DNA of 64,000 nt, from contig NEEC01000004.1 of assembly GCA_002189035.1 (NCBI GenBank), positions 310,001 through 374,000 of the forward strand, in the 5' to 3' direction. Each line of letters starts with the position of its first letter. Positions within the stretch are counted from its first letter, which is position 1. Below the pieces are notes generated by a model, which saw nothing but the letters and a program-made list of their open reading frames with translations, ran no database searches and was not told where the DNA came from. Below, piece by piece: positions 5,729-49,759 of the stretch. This DNA is from Utricularia gibba. Lineage: Eukaryota > Streptophyta > Magnoliopsida > Lamiales > Lentibulariaceae. Position numbers and translations under genes: made by a program.

Positions 5729-6801
5729 ATGAAAGGACTTGCCGATCCTGATCTTTTTGCTGGTTCAGGTGTGTGAATTCAAAACTTTATTCCATTCTGC
5801 ACCTTCCAAATCATGATCTCTATTTTCAGCTTCTGTTGCATACACCAGCCTTACTTCTGGTTTACATTTGGAGTAGTGTGTCCTAGAGCAAATTCCCATC
5901 TTCTTATTCTCTGTAGATGGGCAAAACCAAGCAAATAAGGCCGTCCACATGAGGGATTTTCATGCCATGTTGGATGAAGAAGCAGAAGAATCATGCCAAG
6001 TTATGGAGAAGAAGAGGAGATTAAACTTTGATCAAGTCAAGGCATTGGAGAAGAACTTTGAGGTTGATAACAAGCTTGAGCCTGAGAGGAAGTTGAAATT
6101 GGCTCAAGAACTTGGGCTGCAGCCCAGACAAGTAGCTGTCTGGTTCCAAAACCGCCGCGCCCGCTGGAAAACCAAGCAATTAGAAAGAGACTACGGCGTC
6201 CTCAAAGCTGAGTATGATGCTCTGAAGCACAGCTTGGAGAAACTCCACCATGAAAACGAAACTTTTCTGAAAGAGGTAATCGTGTTATGTATGAACACAC
6301 ACTTCAATGACTACTGATGAAAATTGGCTTCTGGGGTGTGTTTAGATTGAAGATCTGAAATCTCAACTGAAGGAAGACAGAGAAAATGGTGATGATCTGA
6401 AGAAGCAGACGCTGGTCACTCACCCTGGTGCTGAGATGAATGTAGAAATCGCTCTTACTTCCCAAGAGTCGCCAGCGGAAATGAAGATTGAGATCAGGAA
6501 GGAGATATTGGGAGGAAATTCCGACAGTGATTCCAGTGCAATCGTGAACGAGGACAACAGCAGTAGCCCCACGGCGGCGATTTCTTCCTCCAACGCGCAT
6601 CAGGTTCCGGGATCTGCTCCTCAGATCAACCCAAGTTTCGAAATTTATGACGGAGAAACCATCTTCGCAGAGGCCCACAAAGCTTATTGCCACCCACATT
6701 TCGTCAAGATCGAAGAACCCAACTTTTTGTGCGAAGACTCATGTAGCAGTTTCTTTGCAGAGGATCCAGCCCCCAGCCTTCACTGGTACGAGTGGAACTG
6801 A
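5729..6801 (+). CDS. HD-Zip class I transcription factor (ATHB5/6/16-like)
   Basis: Three exons: 5729-5768, 5917-6275 and 6346-6801. They sum to 855 nt and encode 284 residues. The homeodomain covers about residues 44-103, with recognition helix [11 protein letters not shown]. It is followed directly by a leucine zipper of four to five heptads (about 104-145), the HD-Zip I arrangement with no START domain. The 13-codon first exon reads [13 protein letters not shown], matching the MKRL-type N-terminus of the ATHB6 group, and the [13 protein letters not shown] stretch matches the acidic patch before the homeodomain in that group. The C-terminus ends PSLHWYEWN, the aromatic tail typical of the clade. 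Class I members bind pseudopalindromic CAATNATTG sites as dimers and usually act in ABA, drought or light responses; that role is inferred. The start is chosen by splice phase and family similarity, not by the first ATG of the leader. Confidence 0.92.
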
Positions 6802-6959: not shown

Positions 6960-8857
6960 TCACTTTACGATGCATATCTTGATAACAGAAGCACCACCAA
7001 TACGATGAAGAGCAACCACAGCATCACCTGGCACGCAGAGCCCCTTTGAAGTTGCCAGCTTCAGTGCACGTTCAAGAATGGCTTCAGTTGATTCTGCATC
7101 CGTCGCCCTGGCGGAGCCCTCGGCAAGAACTGGAATCAGGCCCCTGTAGACAAGGCTCTGCAATGCAGGAGTTTCATCACTGACTGACCAGTCAAAGGAG
7201 TCGGTGCTCAGAACAGGGACGACGACGGACAGGACTGGAACCGCAGGGCGGTACTTGGCCACCAGCTTGGCCGTCGTCCCACCGCGTGTCATTACCACGA
7301 TGAGCTTCGCTCTGGCTTTGTATGCAGTCCGCACTGCAGAGGAAGCCAGAGATTCCAAGGGGCTCATGGGCAGTGGGGTTGACTGGATCATGGATTTGAA
7401 GATGGATGCATAGTCGAGGGAAGACTCTGCCTCAACGCAGATCCGGGCCATAATCTTGACGGCAAGCTCTGGATAGGCTCCGGCAGCACTCTCCCCGCTG
7501 AGCATCACACAGTCGGTGCCATCCAGGACGGCGTTCGCCACATCGGTTGCCTCAGCACGCGTGGGACGGGGCGACTTGATCATGGATTCCAGCATCTGTG
7601 TGGCTGTTACCACAGGCTTACCTGCAAGGTTGCACTTGTATATCATCATTTTCTGGGCGAGAAAGATCTTTTCAACTGGAATTTCCATTCCCAGATCACC
7701 ACGAGCAACCATAAACGAGTCCGTCTCATGCAGAATATCATCAAAGTTTACAATCCCCTCCTGATTCTCAACCTGGAAAAACGACATCAATCTGAAGTTT
7801 GATGTATCATACAGAAAAGGAACGCAGTGTTAATTCAAGCAAACCTTTGACATCAGCTGTATACGCTTGGCATGAGGTCCAAGAACTTTCCTCACATTCA
7901 CCAGATCAGATCCTTTGCGTACAAACGAGAGAGCAATCATATCGATGTTATTCGGCACACCCCATCCAAGGATGTCTTCTTCATCTTTCTCCGTAAGTGT
8001 GGGAAGATCAACAACAATGCCTGGTAAATTGACATTCTTCCGCTCACCTAGCATGGCGGTGTTCTGGCAGCGGCATCTCACTGTCCCTGAAGCAGGGTCG
8101 CATGACAAAACATACAGTGTAATGGTACCGTCAGAGCAAAGAATTGTGTTTCCAGGTTTCAAGTCCACAGGTAATTTCTTGTAGCTCATAGAGATCATGC
8201 TCGTGTCTCCTTTGATGCTGTAATCGGTTGTTATAGTAATTTCTTGTCCTTCCTTCAGCTGAATAGGCTTCCCATCCTTTAGGAAACCAGTCCGAATCTC
8301 TGGACCCTGGTCAAGAATACAAAAGAACTAAGAAAGAATGCAAAGACTGAATATCATCAAATTTGAAGCATCACTTCCTATCCACTCAGCTCACAACCAT
8401 TCCATGAAATATGATGCTCGAGTATCAACATCACAGTACACAGGCTGTCAGCCATAGAAGATTATGGCTATAACATCAAACTAAAGTCTTTACCCTAGAA
8501 TGGGCATCAGCTGAAACATTACGTAAACATAGACTAGCTGCCAAGTAGGAAAAGCCATGATTCAAGTTGTTCAGGGAATAGACAGTAAGAATAAACCTTA
8601 GTATCAAGCATGACAGCACAGAGAATCTGGGTATTATGCATTGCGATTCTGAGATTGTTTAGAGTTTCCTGATGGTACTCATGGGTACCATGGGAGAAGT
8701 TGAATCGAGCGACATTCATCCCAGCACGAAGGAGATTCTCCAACATCGGCGCTGTCCTTGAAGCGGGCCCCAAAGTGCACACAATCTTCGTCTTCGGGAT
8801 CCGCATATCCGGCACCTGCTGCCCCTTGAGGATTTCCTCAATGTCTATATTCGCCAT
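6960..8857 (-). CDS. Pyruvate kinase, cytosolic isozyme
   Basis: Three coding exons on the minus strand: 8857-8597, 8306-7845 and 7772-6960. They encode 511 residues, the standard length for plant cytosolic pyruvate kinase. The enzyme transfers phosphate from phosphoenolpyruvate to ADP in the last step of glycolysis, as a tetramer needing K+ and Mg2+. Visible signatures are KTKIVCTLGPASR near the N-terminus, NFSHGTHEYH, DTKGPEIRTG across the exon 1/2 junction, and the active-site stretch MVARGDLGMEIPVEK. Further on are the substrate-loop region SPRPTRAEATDVANAVLDG, MLSGESAAG and a complete C-terminal domain ending VIKICIVK. There is no transit peptide, which fits a cytosolic form. A TTTGCAG acceptor 10 nt upstream of the ATG suggests a 5' UTR intron with a leader exon around 9100-9200. 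It converges on the HD-Zip gene with only 158 bp between stop codons. Confidence 0.95.
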
Positions 8858-9751: not shown

Positions 9752-11046
9752 CTAGTCATCGTCCAGCTTCGGTGCTTCTTTGATGTCCTCAGAGTTATCA
9801 TCCTAGCAAAGAAACACAAGGATGAGTGAGGATCCCAAACAAATTCTTCATCTCTTGTTGGAGAAAGAATTAATAGCCTCACAGGTGATGTGTTTGAAAA
9901 GCTATGTTTTTAAGCAGGGAAAGAGAAGGACCTGCATGTCAGAAGTCCAGAGAGTAAGGTTGTCTCTCAGAAGTTGCATAATCAGTGTGCTATCCTTGTA
10001 TGACTCCTCTCCAAGGGTATCCAACTCCGATATTGCATCATCGAAAGCCTTGAGAATTTAGAAGCAAAACTTACAGAAATCAAACATGTACCAAGTTCGA
10101 AAAAGATGTGTACACTGTGGAGCATCATAAGCAAGGCTACCTGCTTGGCAAGGTTGCAAGCACGATCAGGGGAGTTCAAAATCTCGTAGTAAAATACAGA
10201 GAAGTTGAGTGCCAGGCCAAGGCGGATTGGATGAGTTGGAGGTAACTCACTGTTTGCAATGTCCTGCAGCCCACCCACAAGATGATTATCGGTAGTTAAC
10301 ATTTTGTTTTACTATTGAAGGATACGAAAAGTTCGCAGAGAATTGAGCAAATAATGAGGCAGCAGGAAATGTCTGCATTTCAGAAATTCAGTAACCCTAA
10401 GGATCCGTACTGACAAACAAAAATAGCCACAGAGAACTGCGTCAACTGAACAAAATTTGCTCAAAATTAACATTATCTAATGTGCGAATTTGGTGGCAAG
10501 CATTCCAGATCCGGCTTGTGGCCAGAAGAAAGCAATAACAACAGTTATCTAAAAATTGAGAATGGAAACCTGGGCAGATTTGTAGGCAGAGAGGGTGTTC
10601 TCGGCTGCATCCTTCCGTTCTGCACCGATCTTAAATTCAGCCAGATAACGATGATAATCGCCTTTCATCTTGAGGTAGAAGACCTTGGAATCACCGGTGG
10701 CCGCTGAAACGACGAGTCTCTCGTCGAGTAATTTCAAAATGCCGCTGCAAATGGAGGAGAGCTCAGATTCGATCTTAGATCTATAGCTTTTGATGGCAGA
10801 CACGTGACCTTCGTTGCCACGACTCTCCTCCTTCTGTTCGATCGACGAAATGATCCTCCAGGAAGCGCGCCTAGCGCCGATAACATTCTTGTAGGCGACA
10901 GAGAGAAGGTTACGCTCCTCGACGGTGAGTTCCTCGCCGCTGACGGAACCGACGACCTTCTCCATAAACTCCACCATTTCCTCGTAGCGCTCGGCTTGCT
11001 CGGCGAGCTTCGCCATGTACACATTCTCTTCCCGTGGAGACGCCAT
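9752..11046 (-). CDS. 14-3-3 protein (non-epsilon group)
   Basis: Four exons on the minus strand: 11046-10570, 10263-10141, 10048-9932 and 9802-9752. They encode 255 residues. 14-3-3 dimers bind phosphoserine/threonine motifs and control client activity or location, for example plasma-membrane H+-ATPase, metabolic enzymes and transcription factors. All nine helices are present. Diagnostic stretches are [20 protein letters not shown] in the amphipathic groove, [30 protein letters not shown] and [19 protein letters not shown]. The variable acidic tail is [16 protein letters not shown]. The four-exon structure is what I recall for non-epsilon plant genes, whereas epsilon members usually have more introns. 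All three introns are phase 0 GT-AG. Confidence 0.96.
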
Positions 11047-12041
11047 CTTCAGATCTGCTCAAGGATTCGAGTGGACGTTCCCTTTGCGCGGAGAGATGCG
11101 ACTCCAGAAATGGTGAAGGATGCGGTTTTTGGTCATCAAATATCACTTCTTTTTTCAAAATAAATACAATATAAATTATATCTTAATTCCTCCCCATTCC
11201 CTAGCACATGCTGCTGTTCCAGCCCTAGTTTTGAGTTTCCTTATCCCATTATACGTGTGAATAAACGAATTATTATAAATATTGATTTTTTTATTTAATA
11301 TATAAAAAAGGAAAAAAAATCTGAATTAGGATGTGTGGTTATGCCAAAGATAAATGACTTGTCCCTAGAGAAAGACCATTTTACCCCTACTCTATTCTTT
11401 TACACAAAATGTGGGCTATGATTGAGGTTGACTTTTTAGATGTCTAGTTTCGTAATTTGACCAAGGAGACTAATTAATATATAGGTAGGATAGGATTAGG
11501 AGTATATTTGCCTTTCTTGATATATTAATTTAATATTAAAAATGACTATAATTTATATTGTTTTATAAATGAAAATAAAATTTGATGATTTAATGGAGAA
11601 AATAACAGCCGGAAAGGTACTGAGCATAAAGCAGTACGTATTATTCGTTAATTAGTACTGAGAGGCATTAAATGGGAAAAATAATATTAATAAAAAAAGA
11701 AGCGCGTTACATTATGAATCTCCGTTCCAGGTGGTCCATTTGGCCCAAAGGAATTATTGGGTCAATAGCCCAAAGAATCTACTGCCAGGCCCACAAATAA
11801 TTCAACCGTTTCTATTTTTATATGATTTTCAGACGGTCAGCATGACTGCCGTGGCAGTGTTTGGGACGCTTGTCGTGTTGTACCTTGTGGGCCCTCCATT
11901 CACCGAAAGGCACAATCATTTTAGCCCTTAGGCATCTCATCAGAATTTAATACAAACTATTTTGTGCTTTTTTTAATTTTATCAAATTAATACAATGCCA
12001 TTTTTTTAGTGGTATGGTGAGTTTTTAATTTTGTTACTCTT

Positions 12042-14448: not shown

Positions 14449-15790
14449 CTATATTTCCGTGAAAAAGTGGTCATCCAGAAGATCAGACCACATTTGTGAA
14501 CCTCCATAGCTGGATGAGCTGCAGGCATCCCCAACGCCAGCTCCAGAATCAGCTAAAGGCACCGGAGCCAAGACCATTGAACCTACAACAAGAGATTAAG
14601 AGGAAAAGTTACAGTATTAGAGTGTATGCTACACGTTCTGTTTTCGTATGAGTAAGTAGGACACAATTAAGAGTATGGAAAGATTGGAAGCTCGAACCTG
14701 GAACAGGGGAGGGAGTCTGCTGCGGTGACTTCTCTCCTTGAGCTACACCTTCAAACGCAGGACACTCAGCCGGACCGCCGGTGCCGGTCTGAGGTAGTGT
14801 GCATGGGATTTGTAACTCAGGCAAATGGAGCAAGGGCATGGACTCGTAGAGGAAGCCGTCAGACGGGGGCGGAGGTGGTGACGCTCCGGCGTCGAGGTGG
14901 CTAAGGACGGAAGCCTCTTTCAAGGTATTCAAAAGGCTGAAAGTTGCCAAATCAGGGAAAGTTTGTTGAGGGAAAGCTGGCTGTAGGATGGACTGTAAGG
15001 AGGTGTTTAACCTAGCCAACTGAGCAGCTTCAGCTTGTAGCCTCATGGCCTTCGCATGCTCATCAAAATGAGGGTTTTCAATGAGCTCCTTCAGACTCGC
15101 CAAGGCGATCAGATGTGGGATGCTCGAGAAGATATCCGTTCTTGGCTGATGAGTCATCGGATCGATTCCCATTTGGAGCAGCTTCTTCTTCAGATGTGTG
15201 TTCCAGAAATTCTTTATCTCATTATCTGTTCTCCCGGGAAGATGAGTGGCAATAGCTGACCACCTAGTAGAGCAAGCAAATTCAAGAATATGATCAGACC
15301 TGAGCTGCTTGTTTCTAAACAGCTTGCCTTTATGAAGCAGTTACTTGTTTCCAAGAAGGGAGTGAAGATTGAGAATGATTTGTTCTTCTTCTTGGGAGAA
15401 TTTGCCTCTCTTGATATCTGGTCTCAAGTAGTTGGTCCATCTAAGCCTGCAACTTTTCCCGCATCTGTTCAATCCTTCATTCATCAACAACCAAACCAGA
15501 AAAACAATCAATTCCCACAATTTTCTAAATACAATCAACCAACTCCCGGAAAATAAACAACCTTCAAAAGTCAAGTGTTTACACGGGGGAAATTCAACAC
15601 ATTACACTACCCGCCTAAGATCACACTACACGCGTGTTTGTGAGTGTTCATCTGTACCGGCGTGTTTAGGGAGTGCTCTCCAGCTGCCATGGCCGTGCTG
15701 CTGGATGTAGTTGATGAGCTTCTCATCTTCTTCGGGAGTCCAGGGGCCCTTCTTCAGACCGCTGTCGTCGCAGCACGGGGACCTTCCCAT
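14449..15790 (-). CDS. R2R3-MYB transcription factor (subgroup S24, MYB53/92/93-like)
   Basis: Four exons on the minus strand: 15790-15658, 15474-15345, 15263-14698 and 14582-14449. They encode 320 residues. Exon 1 (133 bp) and exon 2 (130 bp) have the classic R2R3-MYB sizes. The protein opens [21 protein letters not shown]2 and R3 carry the regular tryptophans, including [19 protein letters not shown] and [20 protein letters not shown]. Just after R3 comes [19 protein letters not shown], which I associate with S24 members that promote suberin deposition in root endodermis and lateral root control; that role is inferred. The last exon encodes a Ser-rich segment then [16 protein letters not shown], an acidic probable activation tail. 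Reading on through the last donor gives an alternative 3' end without that tail, so a retained intron would shorten the activation region. Confidence 0.93.
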
Positions 15791-20099: not shown

Positions 20100-21411
20100 A
20101 TGACCATCATTCTCCCCACGCCTCCATCCAGCATCAAGCGCGAGACGACTCCGGCGCTGACCTTCGACGCCACCGTTTTACAGAATGCCGCCCCCATACC
20201 CTCCCAGTTCGTCTGGCCGACCCACGAGAGACCCTGCTCCGACCTACCGGAGCTCCACCCCTCCTACGTTGATTTGTCAGGGCTACTCGCAGGCGACCAT
20301 GATGCCGTCCGCGAGGTGTCACGTGTCGTCGGAGAAGCTTGTTTGAAGCATGGTTTTTTTCTAGTGGTTAACCATGGTGTTAGCGCCGAGCTCCTAGCGG
20401 AGGTGCACCGATGCATGGACCATTTTTTTCGGCAGCCGCTTGATCGTAAACAGAAGGTGGAGAGAAGACTTGGTGAGCATTGCGGTTACTCTAGTAGCTT
20501 TACTAGAAGATTCTCTTCAAAACTTCCATGGAAGGAAACACTTTCGTTCGAGTACAAAGAGACAAATGGCGGTTCCAACAACGTTGAAGAGTACTTCCGT
20601 CGAAAGCTGGGCGTTGAATTCCCCACTTAGGGTAAGAATCATACTGTTCTCATTCAAGCAACTAAGCCATTCATAAGCTCTTACTTGCAAGTTTTAACAC
20701 TTCACTTTCAGGAAAGCTTACCAGGAGTATTGCCGTGCGATGAGCAAACTTGCACTAGTGATAATGGAGGTTCTAGCTTTGAGCCTCGGAGTAAGGCCGG
20801 AGAAATTTAGGGAGGTTTACGAAGAGCACGAGTCGATAATGAGACTCAACTACTACCCGCCGTGCAGGGAACCGGATCAGGCACTCGGAACCGGCCCCCA
20901 TTGTGATCCGACCACCATTACTTTACTTCATCAAGACAAAGTCCCCGGGCTTCAAGTCTTCTCCGACTATCAATGGTGGTCCGTAAACCCAAAGTCCGAC
21001 GCTTTCGTCGTCATCATCGGCGACACCTTCACCGTAAGAGTTCTTTCCTCCAGACTTATAATTACAAATTATGAAGGATGAGTTTACAATTTGGAAACTT
21101 AAAGGGCTTTGTTTGGGCAGGCGCTTTCGAACGGAAGATACAAAAGCTGTCTGCACAGGGCGGTGGTGAACAGGCAGAATCCTAGGAAATCACTGGCGTT
21201 TTTCCTTTGCCCGAAGAAGGACAGAGTGGTTGCCCCACCAACGGAGCTGGTGGATTCGGGTCATCCACGGCTGTTCCCTGATTTCAGGTGGGAAAATTTC
21301 TTAGCTTTCACGCAGAAGCATTACAGAGCCGACACTAAAACCCTGGAAGCATTTTCGGAATGGATTACCGAACAGCAACAGTGTAAGAACAGTGACAGGA
21401 GCACACTATGA
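20100..21411 (+). CDS. Gibberellin 20-oxidase-type 2-oxoglutarate/Fe(II) dioxygenase, one-base frameshift at the end of exon 1
   Basis: Three exons: 20100-20631, 20712-21033 and 21121-21411. GA20ox performs successive C-20 oxidations of GA12/GA53 to GA9/GA20 in the cytosol, the rate-limiting step of active gibberellin synthesis. Family marks are FVWPTHERP near the N-terminus, LPWKETLSF, and [20 protein letters not shown], which supplies the iron-binding His and Asp. Others are the second iron His in CLHRAVVN, the 2OG-binding Arg in [13 protein letters not shown], and [16 protein letters not shown] near the end. Exon lengths sum to 1145 nt, one short of a whole number. Exon 1 reads correctly to GVEF, then a run of four C (20621-20624) where five would be expected throws it into TAG at 20628-20630. 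With five C it would continue into the family-typical HLG before KAYQEYC. This is either a pseudogene lesion or a sequencing error. With one more C the protein would be about 381 residues. Confidence 0.85.
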
Positions 21412-27768: not shown

Positions 27769-29894
27769 TCACCGGACTCTTCTCTGTGGTGCTTTGAACC
27801 GCAACCGGGATGGGGGAGATGGCGAAAACTCAACCGGAAGCTGTGGAGATACCAGGTCTCCGGCCAGCATACCGACCACCTCCTTCATGGAGGGCCGCTT
27901 GGAAGGTGATTTCTGCAGGCAGAGTAATCCCACTGTGATGCATAGCAGGGCTTGTTCTTTGTTCAGGGATTGGATCCTCTGATCCACCAAGTCGAGAAGC
28001 TTCCCGGTACGGGCAAGCTGTCGAGCCCACGACAAGAGGTTGGCTCGTTGGAACTCGGACATGGGGGAGCCGGTTACCTGAAGAGGCCTTCGCCCTGCAA
28101 TCAGAACTAATAACAGCACACCAAAGCTGTAGACATCGCACTTCTCGGATAAGTCATCGCCACCCCCGTATTCTGGTGCAATGTAGCACACCGTTCCTCG
28201 CATGCTTGGCGTGCTGCTGATGCCTCCACTTCGTGGAATCTCCCCGCTGATGGAATCGTAGCTATTCTTGCGTGCTCGCCACAGGTCACTGCTAAGACCA
28301 TCAAACCACCAGTCCGTGCTGCCTCTACTGTCTCTGCTCCTGCTCCTGTTTCTTTTCTTCTTTCGATCGGAGTAAAACTCGTCATCCCTCGCCCAACAGC
28401 CATCCGTGTTTTGATATTCCTTCATTAGTGCTTTTGTTTGTTTCTTCTTCTTTCTTTTCTTCCGCTCAAGCTCTTCACAGTACTCCTCCTTCCACCACTC
28501 TCTTGCAGGTCTTCTCTTTTCTTTCTTCGCATTCTTGTCATCATCCAATGACACCCACCAATCTAACTGTCTCCTTTCCTTCTTCTTCTTCTCCGGTTTT
28601 ACGAGTACTCTCGAGCTGGATGAAGCGCCAATACCATTACGACTCTCCCTCTTGATGTCACTCCCAATCCATTCCATCACATAGTCCTTAACTCTCCCTG
28701 GTTCACCATCTGGTCCATTGTCCTGCTTCCACCACCAATCCTTCCCTGCGATATTCTTCTTTGTCACTTTCTTCTTCCACACGCTCCTTTCAGTGGTACT
28801 CTCAACGTTTTCCCGATCAACATTCGGCTCGGAGATGATGATGCTTTTCTCTAATCCCTCAGAAGGCGATGCCAGTGCAGCAAGTGTTCTAGGAGACACG
28901 GCGGGTGCAGCTTCCGCTTCAGGCGATAGCTCGATCCCAGGGAAGGTCTCTGGAGAAGCCTCAATCCCAACTACTACACTCTCCGGTGACCTCTCGATAC
29001 CACCCAAGTTGTTAACTTCTTCAAAACCACTGGTTGTGATTACACTTTCAGTATCCTCGGCCACCGATCCATTATCCTCGACACCATTTCCATGTCCATC
29101 TCTCTTAATATCAGCTTCCACAACAACATTATCATCCGGCTTAAACCTCGCCAACCCGAAATCACCAATCTTGGCATTAAACCCCCCATCCAATAGAATA
29201 TTGCTAGGCTTAATATCACCATGAATAATTGGTGGATCACAGTAATGATGTAAATACTCCAATCCCTTAGCAACGTTAAGAGCAACCAAGAACCTCTTAT
29301 CCCAACTCCGTAATTCCTCAGAATTTTTGTGAAAGAGACAATCTTGAAGGCTACCATTATCCATAAGTTCATACACCAAAAGCATCCTGCGCCTCCTCGG
29401 ATCCGACGAAAAACCCATAACAGAAACTATGTACCTGCTATCGATCTTCGATGAAAAAAGCAGTTCATTTTGAAATTCACGCTCACCTTGCAAAGATCCT
29501 GAATCCATAACCTTCACCGCCACATGGGAAGAACTGTAAACCGATTCTTTCGGCAAATTGAGCCCCGATTTGAGCTCAGCACGGTAGACTGAGCCGAACC
29601 CACCCTGGCCCAATCGGAGGGCGGGCGAAAAATTAGCCGTCGCGCGGCGAAGCACAGAGTAGGAAACACTATGCGGAGGTTTCTTCGAATCCGTGTCAGA
29701 AGCCGAAGGAGCGGTGCGTTTCTTTCTGATCTTACGGAAGCAGAGGGTCAGCAACAACAAAAAAGAGAAGGCCGCCACTAAACCCCAGCCAACGGCGCAC
29801 CAACATCGTGGGTACGGCGATGGGATGACAACGACGACGGCGGCGGCGGCGGCAGCGGCAGCGGCGCATCAGAAAGGAGGCGTCGGTAAGGCAT
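27769..29894 (-). CDS. Receptor-like Ser/Thr kinase (At4g25390/At5g51770 type), probable one-base frameshift near the 5' end
   Basis: The main minus-strand frame (29780 to 27769) has no upstream ATG. An ATG at 29894 in another frame opens MPYRRLLSDAPLPLPPPPP, the Pro-rich N-terminus expected for this family. That frame meets TAG just where four G (29783-29786, C on the + strand) occur and five would join it to the kinase frame. After the join come one membrane helix (VAAFSFLLLLTLC) and basic residues. The kinase follows: G-loop GQGGFGSVYR, the catalytic Lys in VAVKV, HGDIKPSNILLD (non-RD type), DFGLARF, IAPEY and DVYSFGVLLLVLIAG. Between DFGLARF and IAPEY lies a ~310-residue insert: an acidic/SPE-rich half, then a Lys/Arg-rich half with repeated WW pairs. 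The ectodomain is only ~40 residues, so it is unlikely to bind a ligand alone. Apart from the frameshift it is uninterrupted. Confidence 0.87.
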
Positions 29895-39005: not shown

Positions 39006-42000
39006 TTAACTCTTTTGGGCATGTGAGACAAGCCTGAGGAGCTCAACGACTTCCTTCAGTCTTTTGTCTGCATTTTCTCTTGCCGGTCTTGGAGTCCTAA
39101 GTAAACATCAGCATAACATGATTTCAATCTTCGGTTGCTTAATTAGGCAATGCAGTGATTTATCTTGACCAACCTCTTATCTTTAGCGGCCTTCCTTGTG
39201 AGCTCCTGGGCAAGGTTGGTTAGTCTCTTGAGAAGGGCTGGTGACTTGCGAATAGCATTTGCACCAACTGGTCTGAAGCACATTTTCTTCAGGAGGTCAG
39301 CAGCAACGAAGTATGCATCTTCTTTGTTTCTGCCAAATCAGGAGCACGAAATCTGAGTCGTAAATATATTTTTTTCTGATTGTTGAACAATGTGTATTGT
39401 AGTATCTTTACCTCAGGAACTCCATGACAATGGTTTCCATGCAGTGAGGGCATTGAACCAATATCTCTGTAAGGTGTGGATAGCGGGCGAGGTTCCTGAG
39501 AGTGGAGATGGCATGCTTGAGAACTTGCTGGTCTGGAATGCTCCGGCTCACAGACCTGATCAACTTTAGCAAAGTGTATATGGCTCCTGCGGCAACTAGC
39601 TCTTCACAGCATTTCTGCGACAGCTCTGTGGCCATGTCTGAATGAACATGTAGTGAATGCACTATGTGAGTTGTTTTGTTTTGATCCGTTTGAAAGTAGA
39701 TTGTTTTACCTAAAGTTGCACAAGTGTGCAAAATGTTGGTCACACTTTTCATGCTCAAAAGTTCAGACAGTGCTGCAATAAGGCGGTTGATTAATCGCCG
39801 GCTCTCATCTACATTTGCAGCCGATTTTTCCATTCTCAACCGCAGGTCAAGAACTTGGGTTTTTGCATGTTTTCGAGCAAGATAGCCTTTCCAGTACGAC
39901 TGTCAAGATTCAATTGGTTTCAAATACTAATCTGTGACTGAAGAAAATGCAGTGATGCATGCAGTTTCATGAAGTCGAAGTGGCTCACTTGAATCAAGAT
40001 TGCAGACTGCAGTTTCCTTTTATCAAGTTGCTTTGCCATCCAACCCCGGAAGTATAACTGAATCAGCACTGCAGCATTTGTTGCCTTCATTTGTAGAACA
40101 TATCTCCACCATCTTTGCAACTTCACTATGCAATGGATCATATTCTCATAGCCTGCTTGTTCTAGATAATTATTGGGAGTCGTACCAGAGCAGAACGATG
40201 CTGCACATTCAACGTTTCAGGATGGCCAGTTGATCCGTAAAGCGCTTGTGAGAATATCTTGAAAAGGAGTATACATACCTGGAAGCTTTCTCCTAAAGTT
40301 TTCTCCTCTGATAAACGCTTGCAAAACAGCTGCTGCAACCCTGTGAGATAAAAATGCATTACGACAACTCATGCAGTGAAAAGTGCTCTTGATCTTTGTG
40401 ACTGCATTTTTTTGGAGCAGCAACTTCTTCCTTTGCAACCATGCCCTGCAGAAGCCTTGAAGTTTAATGATAAGATTTTTTTTTCTCAGGGCTTTTTTGC
40501 GAGACACCCATCCACGAAAATGGGACTGTATAAGTGTTGCCGCCTTTTCTTTTTCCTTTTGAATCCTGAAATTTCTCATTCTCCTTGCATATCTAAAACT
40601 CATCTGTATTGTTCTTATAGCCATCTTTTTTCTGGTATAACTCCTCCTGATCAACCAACCAAGAAAATAACTCTGGATTTTACTCGCTGCAATGTGCTCC
40701 TCCCTTCTAATGGATTTGCAAATGAAAAACTTCTTCCACGCTTTCTGTATTTTGATAGCTGCTGCCATTTGAAGTGCGGCCTTCATTTTTGCATATGCAG
40801 ATCTCGCTAACCATCCACGAAAATGGGATTGTATAGCTGTTGCTGCTTTCTCTTTCTCTTTGTGAATCCTGGAATTTCTCTTTCTTCTGAAATACCTATA
40901 ACTTATCTGGATTGTTTTGATAGCCAGCATTTTTCTTGCGAAACTCCTCCTGATCAACCAACCAAGATAATGGCTCTGGATTTTTTCTGCCGCATGGTGC
41001 TTATGTCTTTGAATGGACTTGCAAATCAAAAAGTCCTGCCACGCCTTTTGAATTTTGATAGCTGATGCCGTTTGAAGTGCGCACTCCCTATTTGCATTGG
41101 CAGACCTTACAAACCATTCGCGAGTGTACCTCTGAATTACAGAAGCAGCCTTGATTTTCAAATGCATTTCATTTCCAACCCTCCTTTCAAAATGCCTCTG
41201 TGCAATCCATGACCTTATTGCCTGCTGAATGACTATCCCTGACCTTTGTATATTTACGAAGTATCGCCTGTCAACCAGAAAGGCAACATGCGACGTGATT
41301 CTGCAAATGTCCCTTGCTGCAAGTTAGCAAGAAACCAATAGAAAAAGTTAGACATGGAGGGGCAGAAACACACCAAAATTAAGCAAGTTTTTCATTAAAA
41401 AAGATTTGAGACGGACCTTTTCTCGCCATAAGATCCTCCACAGTCAGTTTCTTCTGCACCACAAGCCATGCATAAGCATATTTTTGCAAGATTAGAGCTG
41501 CATTTCTCACCATCACATAATTCCTCCGGTCTGATATTTTTCTTTGATGGGATTGTATGATTATTGCAGCTTTCTCTGCAAATAAAAGAAAGCTCGACAG
41601 CTTAACTAAACGAAACTTAGTTCCAACAAACTGATTACTTACACTACTAAAAGCTAAAATATTGATGCACACACCTCTCGTGATGCTGCTGCTGGTCTTT
41701 CTACCGTTCATCAATTCCTTCCAAGTAAAAGCCGCCTTGGTGCCCTTTCCATTCTGTTGAGCCATGTCTTTCCACCAAGCCATTATAGTTGTAAAATCTC
41801 TTGAACAAACTGCCAACCATTATACAAGACAAAAACTTCATTATTAGGATCCATGTAACTTTGCCTAATTGCAAAACATCAGCGTTCATCTAAACTACCA
41901 TGAAGTGATACCTACAGAGAACACGTTCTTAAAAGAAAAGATACTTTATAGTATAGTTGCATATAGCATAATTCACCGTATCTCGGAAAGCTTTCATGAA

Positions 42001-46047: not shown

Positions 46048-47379
46048 TCAGTTGCTATTGAGCTCCATCTCCTTCTTCTTGAGCTCTAGCGCCATGCGCT
46101 CGTTTGCCAGCTTCATTCGTTCTATCTCCATCCTGGCGAAGTCCAGTTCCCTGTCCTTCTTCCGGCAGAACCTCTGCCATTTGAACCTCTCCTTTTCAAG
46201 TTCCAGCATCCGGGTTTCTATTTGGAGCCTCTGCTCTTCTAACTGGACACTTCTTTGGCTGATCCACTGCTTCTTTGATACGGAATTTATTTCCATTCCT
46301 TCTGGTGAGACGTGGTCTCCCTCATAGTCAACGATTTTATTGCAGTCTAAAGAGTGTACAGGAGGTGGCTTCTTTAAGCTGAAATCCTCAGGTCCCTGGG
46401 ATGATCTCGTTCTTTTTGGAAGATTTTGCATCATGCCATATGCTGCTGCTTCACCAGAATCCTCGTGGTCATCATACTCCATTTGGTGATCAAACTCATC
46501 GTTATCTTCAAGAGGATGGCATTTGGAATCATGTTCCTCGTGATCATCTCGAGTGCCAAGGGCCAAGTGCAGAGATCGCTGTAACTCTGGATCATGAGGT
46601 AGATACAACCGGTTCCCGTTATGATACGAACACATCTCCTCATAATGCAAATGCTTTGAGCTCAGAATTTTTCGAACCTCTTCTTTTGCTTTCTCAGGTA
46701 TGTGATCTACCACTTCTAGAAGTGAAGGATTCTCGACAACTTCGCAACAAGTCCCTCTTCCGAGAATCTCATTCAGCCTCTTGTAACGTTTGTTGAGATC
46801 ATTGAACTTATCCTCACACTGCTGTGGTGAAACAAAGAAACCTCTTTCAGCCAACACCTTAGAAACAGATTTCCATTTCCCTTTCTTCTGCAAGTTTGCA
46901 TGCTTCCTCCTCGAACCAATGCTGCTGTTTTCTGCACAGACAGCCTCCTCGTTTATGTATGATACAGCAGTGATCAACAGCCTCACCATTTCATCCGTCC
47001 ATTTCACACGCTGCCATGGAGATGAAGCCTTCTTCCCTTTTCTAGATTCAGAAATCTCTTCTGCAAAGCTTGGTTCATCCTCTTCACTTGCGGATTTTGA
47101 CTTCTCATGCTTGCTCAAGTCAGATAGAGAAACAGTGTGATCATGAACTTGGCTTCCTCCTCCTGCCACAAGGGGGAACTTCTTATGATTCGTGGAAACT
47201 AATGGAGGAGGCCCTTGCCTTGGATGAGAGCCATGGTGCGATGCAATAAATTGCTGCGGTTGCTGTTGTTGATGATGATGAACTCTGATAGGTTCTTGCA
47301 AATCAAAACCCCCAAAAGAAACATTGCCCTGCATCATATTCCTTGAAGACAGGCGATTCCCTTCCATTCCAAAGCACAA
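46048..47379 (-). CDS. Trihelix (GT-type) transcription factor
   Basis: A single coding exon of 443 residues. The N-terminus has His/Gln runs. The DNA-binding domain begins at about residue 120 (SPWQRVKWTDEMVRLLITAV), with regularly spaced Trp and hydrophobic residues continuing through GKWKSVSKVLAERG and QQCEDKFNDLNKRYKRLNEI. An acidic middle follows (about 290-330), then a putative basic nuclear signal near PKRTRSS. The C-terminus is a long charged coiled coil (about 375-440) rich in E/K/R/M. This layout fits the At1g21200/At3g10040-type trihelix proteins rather than double-domain GT-2. The Met five codons downstream (MEGNRLSS) is an equally good start. A 5' UTR intron is plausible upstream, since the leader appears to extend past 47.4 kb. 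Confidence 0.86.
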   Translation of the reverse strand: MCFGMEGNRLSSRNMMQGNVSFGGFDLQEPIRVHHHQQQQPQQFIASHHGSHPRQGPPPLVSTNHKKFPLVAGGGSQVHDHTVSLSDLSKHEKSKSASEEDEPSFAEEISESRKGKKASSPWQRVKWTDEMVRLLITAVSYINEEAVCAENSSIGSRRKHANLQKKGKWKSVSKVLAERGFFVSPQQCEDKFNDLNKRYKRLNEILGRGTCCEVVENPSLLEVVDHIPEKAKEEVRKILSSKHLHYEEMCSYHNGNRLYLPHDPELQRSLHLALGTRDDHEEHDSKCHPLEDNDEFDHQMEYDDHEDSGEAAAYGMMQNLPKRTRSSQGPEDFSLKKPPPVHSLDCNKIVDYEGDHVSPEGMEINSVSKKQWISQRSVQLEEQRLQIETRMLELEKERFKWQRFCRKKDRELDFARMEIERMKLANERMALELKKKEMELNSN

Positions 47380-49759
47380 ATTTTGCAGACAAGTTACTTA
47401 GAAAGAAGTAAACCGGATGTTTACAAAACTTCCCACTAAGAAACTTCAGGAATTCACAATAACTAACTCACAAAAAATCATCCCCAGATTTGGTTTACAA
47501 CACACTGCATATTGCAAAAACGCAACAACCCACCAGAAAACGTGGAAGACCCCCTGAATGACCAAAGAAGAACCAAGCTTTTTCCTCCAACAACTTACCC
47601 AGAAATCGAACAACCCAGATCAAAATCAGAGCTTGCAGCGGAAGAACGAAATGTCTTCGAACCCCAGGAAGCAGTTGGGGTAGAAAGTAATGGAAACAAG
47701 AATGACAAGCTTAGATTTTTAAATAACATAATAATTGATAGGTTTTTTTAGGAGGGGGTTGACCCACAAAGAGTACCTGTGAAGATCCAATTCCGATGAA
47801 ACCAGAGACCCTTAACAGAGTGGAATCAAGTCGGTGGAGCCACGGGAACCACTTTCTTTTCCTTTTTACTACACCCGACACACGCTACACGATTCAGACA
47901 AGCATTAATACGGTTCTTTAGATCCTCCCTCAATCTCCGAACACCCTCCGCCGCTTTTCTGATTTAACTGTGCTGAATTCTTCTCCTCTAGGGTACTCGT
48001 TTTCACACTGGGAATATGCCTTTGTGTAAACCAGTCCGGGGTTACTGTTCCTGTGCATAGTAAAAAGTCGCACAAGACTTGAGCTGAACCCCAACCAGGG
48101 AATACGCCAAGTAAGAAATCAAATGTCTGAATCCGAGGAATTTCAGACGAGAAGCTCAGATTTTTCTAAGCCAAAGAATTTCAAGCTCACACGCACAAAG
48201 CTTCCACACCATGGGACTTTCAAAACCATATGACTTCCCTTTACTATTAAATGCATTCAAAACAAAATTTGCTTTTGTCCGGGTTTCTTTATTGTCCGGT
48301 TTGTGGACAACACACACCCTAAGGAAACTCACATAATTGAATTTAAACATATTGAGAATATTTTAATATAGATGTATATTCAATTTAAAAATAATTGAAT
48401 AAAATGAAATATGTTTGGTTGATAGATGATAAATATCTTCATTATTTTTTAATATAAATAAAAGAAATTAAGTATAGAATTTTAAAAATATATTAAAATT
48501 GTAAGATATTAAATTTTTAATTCAAGATAAGATAGTGTGTGTGGACCTGATGATCTCAGGTGGGAGGACGATGGAAGGTATGGGCTGACCCAAAGGACAG
48601 CTGACCCATTTATATTGGATCTTAGTTGTCTAATTATATAGAGCCCATGTTGTTAAGATATTCTAAAATTGGAATCAGGCCCAATAGAGGCCGAAAAAGA
48701 TCAAGCCCCGTACCTCTCGGATACTGGAATCTTCCCCAAATCTCTCCACTAGATGTGATTTTATCAGAAATGTGAATGTTTATCGGGGGTTTCAACAGCT
48801 CGTATATCTGGGAGTGTTGTTTCTCTGATTATGATCCAATTTGATTGGTTTTTTTCTAAGCTAAGCAGTTTTCAGGGAATCGTAAAAAGGAAAACACGGA
48901 GGTTTGTTTCCTGAATCCTCAGTTGATGCCACTGTTGAAATTTTTTGTTTGATTGAAGGATTGGTAGAGATTTTTATCTGGTTCACGGCCATTCAGTTTG
49001 AAATTCTAGCTTTTTGTTTCCCTACGGTGTGGATTGATGATCGGTGTCTGAATTATGTTGATTCATAAATGATTGCGAGATGCTGTTGTGCTATGCAACA
49101 AAGGGACTAGTAGCGTTCGAGTTTAAGTAGTCTGCAACCACTAATTGTTTCGATCTTTCTGGGTTTCCTAGTGTCTGATATTTTATTTTCCTCTCTTTCT
49201 GCACTTCTTCGCCATATCAGTGTCATAATCTCGATGGTAAGGCTTTCGTTGCCACGATATCATAAATTTTGCCCTTCAAAGTTCTTCAGAATAGTCACAG
49301 AGTCGTATATTTTGACTGTTGCCTGGATTTAGCGCAGAAGCAAGCGATAAACATATTTGGTCGTGATTTTGAAATTTACTATCTGAACTATTTACTAGAT
49401 TTATAACAGCATCTATCCATGTTGAGAATAGTGTTGTTGGTTGAGTAGCGTCTTTGTGTTCCGGTATCGAGAAACTACGCTGCTATGGCGAATTATAGGG
49501 TGCAGCATTACGATCAAAGTGATGTCTTTGTTTTATTTAATGCATTAGAATGGATTGCTAGGCTGCCTTGTTGATCCAGGAAGACCCGCTGCACCACTTG
49601 TGTATTCGTGTTCCCTATTTTCCTGTGTTATTTTCATATGTTTTCGACTTCTTGGGCAGGTATTAGATGTGTGTGCATGAAGCAGGCAGCAGAAGATTTC
49701 GTGGCCTTACTCATGGAATAGCACCATCTTTTATTGACTAAAGATTCATTGATCTCCAA
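47380..49759. other. Divergent region: trihelix leader, AT-rich centre, LAZ1 leader
   Basis: The trihelix leader probably lies left of about 48.0 kb and the LAZ1-like leader, perhaps with 5' UTR introns, right of about 48.75 kb. Between about 48.34 and 48.54 kb is a very AT-rich block. No coding gene is supported; the frame at 47512-47751 is a likely leader artefact. Confidence 0.55.

Follow-up and report, generated by a model that had tools for sequence, protein, structure and literature searches.

The gibberellin (GA) 20-oxidase gene described here, from Utricularia gibba, lacks a single base near the end of its first exon, and this frameshift is almost certainly an error of sequencing or assembly in a gene that is probably intact and most likely encodes an ordinary GA20-oxidase. 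This reading is favored because the same kind of missing base recurs in many well-conserved genes of the same assembly.

GA20-oxidases convert GA12/GA53 to GA9/GA20. The window, by which we mean the whole 64,000-nucleotide stretch that was analyzed (contig NEEC01000004.1, positions 310,001 to 374,000), contains the GA20-oxidase gene among a number of genes assigned by Pfam:

342-905: MATE transporter
5877-6317: HD-ZIP
6960-7829: pyruvate kinase
10549-11058: 14-3-3
14609-15340: MYB
27769-29868: protein kinase, its kinase domain split by a long insert
40217-41323: IQ-motif protein
46048-47397: Myb/SANT-like (trihelix-type) factor

A preliminary description of the GA20-oxidase gene presented it as disabled by a one-base frameshift, which would be either a recent null allele or a homopolymer error. 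We examine the lesion itself, the paralogs of the gene, the selection acting on it, and the occurrence of similar breaks elsewhere in the genome.

Results

Gene model and lesion

Direct reading of the sequence and the list of open reading frames, from which the TGA coordinate was taken, give a three-exon GA20-oxidase-like gene at window positions 20100-21411, on the forward strand:

20100..20631 (+): exon 1, 532 nt; DIOX_N, LPWKET; one base lost near the 3' end
20621..20624 (+): CCCC run, where the family reading frame calls for one more base
20628..20630 (+): TAG from the shifted frame, one base ahead of the end of exon 1
20632..20711 (+): intron 1, 80 nt, GT...AG; donor position common to six paralogs
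20712..21033 (+): exon 2, 322 nt; 2OG-FeII_Oxy; NYYPPC and the HCD iron-ligand motif intact
21121..21411 (+): exon 3, 291 nt including TGA; distal iron His (CLHRAVVN) and 2OG-binding Arg (RKS) intact

The coding exons sum to 1145 nt (532+322+291), a total that would be divisible by three with one more base, and the frame is lost at the CCCC run, both as first described. Past this run the translation reads ...GVEFPT* and ends at the TAG, which had been placed eight bases before the donor but in fact leaves a single base of exon 1 after it, the donor GT being 20632-20633. Exon 2 is back in the family frame (KAYQEYC...), and a reading of the whole gene revealed no stop or frame break other than that at the CCCC site.

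The features of the family, reported earlier as retained, were found both by Pfam and by reading the sequence. PF14226 (DIOX_N) matches exon 1 with an E-value of 2.8e-25, and PF03171 (2OG-FeII_Oxy), split over two exons, matches exon 2 at 3.4e-21 and exon 3 at 2.5e-07, giving the gene the two domains that mark a GA20-oxidase. LPWKET, NYYPPC, the His-Asp-His iron ligands and the 2OG Arg, which are the established motifs of the enzyme, are all present, as are the splice sites. The relatives of the product in the PDB are plant 2OG oxygenases, GA3ox2 and GA2ox3 among them. As judged from its sequence, 20100-21411 probably encodes an ordinary, functional plant GA20-oxidase.

Paralogs in the same genome

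The closest paralog, on C1 (L050), shares 76% amino-acid identity with the window gene in exon 1 and 89% in exon 2, and at least five more GA20-oxidase-like genes are present in the genome. The position of the exon 1 donor is identical in all six paralogs compared, in the form GG|GTAAG, GG|GTATG or GG|GTAAA, and the gene model is therefore correct. At the site of the break the C1 paralog reads GAG TTC TCC CAT TTA GG|GT, where the window gene has one base fewer. The five-C reading proposed in the preliminary description holds insofar as the window gene is one base short of the family sequence, but since the C1 paralog has TTC TCC CAT TTA GG at this point, the missing base could be either C or T.

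A second paralog, L052 (C213:1589438-1590632), is short of one G within a GGGGGG run in its first exon and is otherwise intact, so that the same class of lesion is found in two of the seven GA20-oxidase genes. A search of the genome, which may be partial, found no second haplotype copy of the window locus.

Selection on the window gene

A codon model that took in the window gene and the C1, C244 and C213 copies gave an overall omega of 0.148. On the window branch omega was 0.18, against 0.14 elsewhere, both being rough estimates given the high synonymous divergence on all branches; a separate omega for the window branch fitted no better (2dlnL 0.3), and omega = 1 on that branch was rejected (2dlnL 8.9). 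Over most of its history the gene has thus evolved under purifying selection, and the relaxed selection expected of an old null was not found on its branch. Purifying selection and the lack of a second lesion together argue against an old pseudogene, and give no support to the earlier description of the gene as disabled. A null that arose very recently, however, would show neither relaxed selection nor further lesions and would leave no trace in dN/dS.

Frame breaks across the assembly

Abutting profile hits in different frames were gathered from GRAS, BAHD, UGT and 2OG-oxygenase searches of the same genome. By a scripted tally, 23 of the 28 pairs were of the type in which one base is lost and five were of another type, a count that is approximate, since a few of the losses trace to hits that are degenerate or align poorly (C416, C244:2106, C414:3398). 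No clear single-base gain occurred among the 28 pairs. The exceptions comprise a genuine intron (L090), two separate single losses (L091), a case on C414 consistent with two bases lost overall, a pair on C411 whose hits are 34 nt apart with in-frame stops in the gap, and a pair within a degenerate hit (C244:2105). An earlier hand count of 23 losses in 24, made before the script, which retains these explained exceptions in its 28, gave p = 1.5e-6 under equal probabilities of loss and gain, and p = 0.009 with loss three times as probable as gain.

The GRAS family consists of conserved transcription factors. Among 37 of its members that are otherwise normal, a hand count gives about 12 with a break, or approximately one loss for every 3 kb of coding sequence; at such a rate it is no surprise to meet an error in a gene of 1.1 kb. 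Applied to the 1145-nt coding sequence, this rate corresponds to about a one-in-three chance of one loss, which is an upper figure because the rate in other families appears lower, most PPR and UGT frames being long and open.

The sequences at selected break points were read directly, the exact base lost being judged by eye against the family frame. Most single-base losses at these sites fall in short G or C runs, beside conserved motifs. In L086, GGTCCCCCACTTTC interrupts GGPPTFRLTGIG, and three GRAS paralogs (L086, L087 and L089) have lost one base at the same conserved C run, which encodes GGPP and is a hotspot of error. Losses in C runs were also read in L094, L099 and L104, and losses in G runs in L095, L096, L106 and L108, while the breaks in L100, L101, L102 and L103 show no clear homopolymer. 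An independent scan of the extracted loci found single losses twice in a 2OG-oxygenase on C412 and also in the PPR genes L056 and L066; antisense and short-intron breaks flagged automatically were discounted as spurious or as introns.

Run lengths in the extracted loci, some of which overlap so that the counts are not fully independent, included one C run of seven or more against about nine expected from the shorter runs, and A/T runs of seven or more were in excess. The small contig C376 duplicates part of C413 (L110/L111 and L112/L113; C413:5391k-5406k) and is probably an uncollapsed haplotig. Over 1155 bp of one shared region the two copies show a pair of single-base indels and one substitution, and a second shared stretch is identical over 779 bp.

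Discussion

The same class of lesion occurs at a high rate, with a strong bias toward loss, across unrelated conserved genes, which is the behavior expected of homopolymer error. Of the two origins first offered for the lesion, the abundance of single-base losses in G/C runs throughout the genome strongly supports error. One base would have been dropped from a short C run of exon 1 during sequencing or assembly, leaving one of the numerous single-base deletions that persist in this assembly, chiefly in G/C homopolymers. Such a pattern is typical of incompletely polished long reads, which may have been the source of the assembly, and the reads or transcripts of the window gene would be expected to carry an intact frame.

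A very recent natural null allele in the sequenced plant is improbable. Translation would in that case stop after 176 residues, without the 2OG-Fe(II) domain; the transcript would probably be removed by nonsense-mediated decay, since the second junction lies about 325 nt past the stop; and GA levels would be buffered by the other GA20-oxidase genes. The stop is present in the sequence as given, at least six GA20-oxidase-like paralogs could compensate for the loss, and natural GA20ox2 nulls are known in crops, such as rice sd1 (PMC7570060). Against this, the window gene has no other lesion and no relaxed constraint, and about a third of the GRAS genes carry the same single-base loss; that a third of these conserved genes are recent nulls is not credible. 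A correct sequence rescued by another splice donor or by programmed frameshifting is very improbable. The active-site motifs are intact downstream of the break, but nothing else was found to suggest it. Use of another donor is disfavored by the conservation of the 20632 position in six paralogs, and since the TAG lies upstream of that position, any rescue would entail the loss of some exon 1 sequence. Programmed frameshifting is disfavored by the similar breaks in other families, which are scattered over many unrelated positions.

Apparent null alleles and pseudogenes in this assembly should not be taken at face value, given that breaks of this kind affect about a third of the GRAS genes studied, and claims of gene loss drawn from it require read support.

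Homopolymer-length errors are the commonest residual error of long-read-only bacterial assemblies, according to PMC8812927, and their frame-breaking effect is described in PMC12007338. The losses reported here, though their long-read origin is presumptive, resemble the deletion errors of these sources and PMC9262707 in that they are single-base losses, mostly in G/C runs, of otherwise intact genes and assembly-wide. The alleles of rice sd1 (OsGA20ox2) would be comparable, as losses of a GA20-oxidase gene, if the window null were real, but sd1-d is a 383-bp deletion (PMC7570060), whereas the window gene lacks a single base, in a genome where such losses abound. Compared with known plant GA20-oxidases, the window gene differs by the one exon 1 base absent from the assembled sequence, and is like them in its three exons, LPWKET, NYYPPC, HCD/H iron ligands, R-x-S 2OG motif and intact C-terminus.
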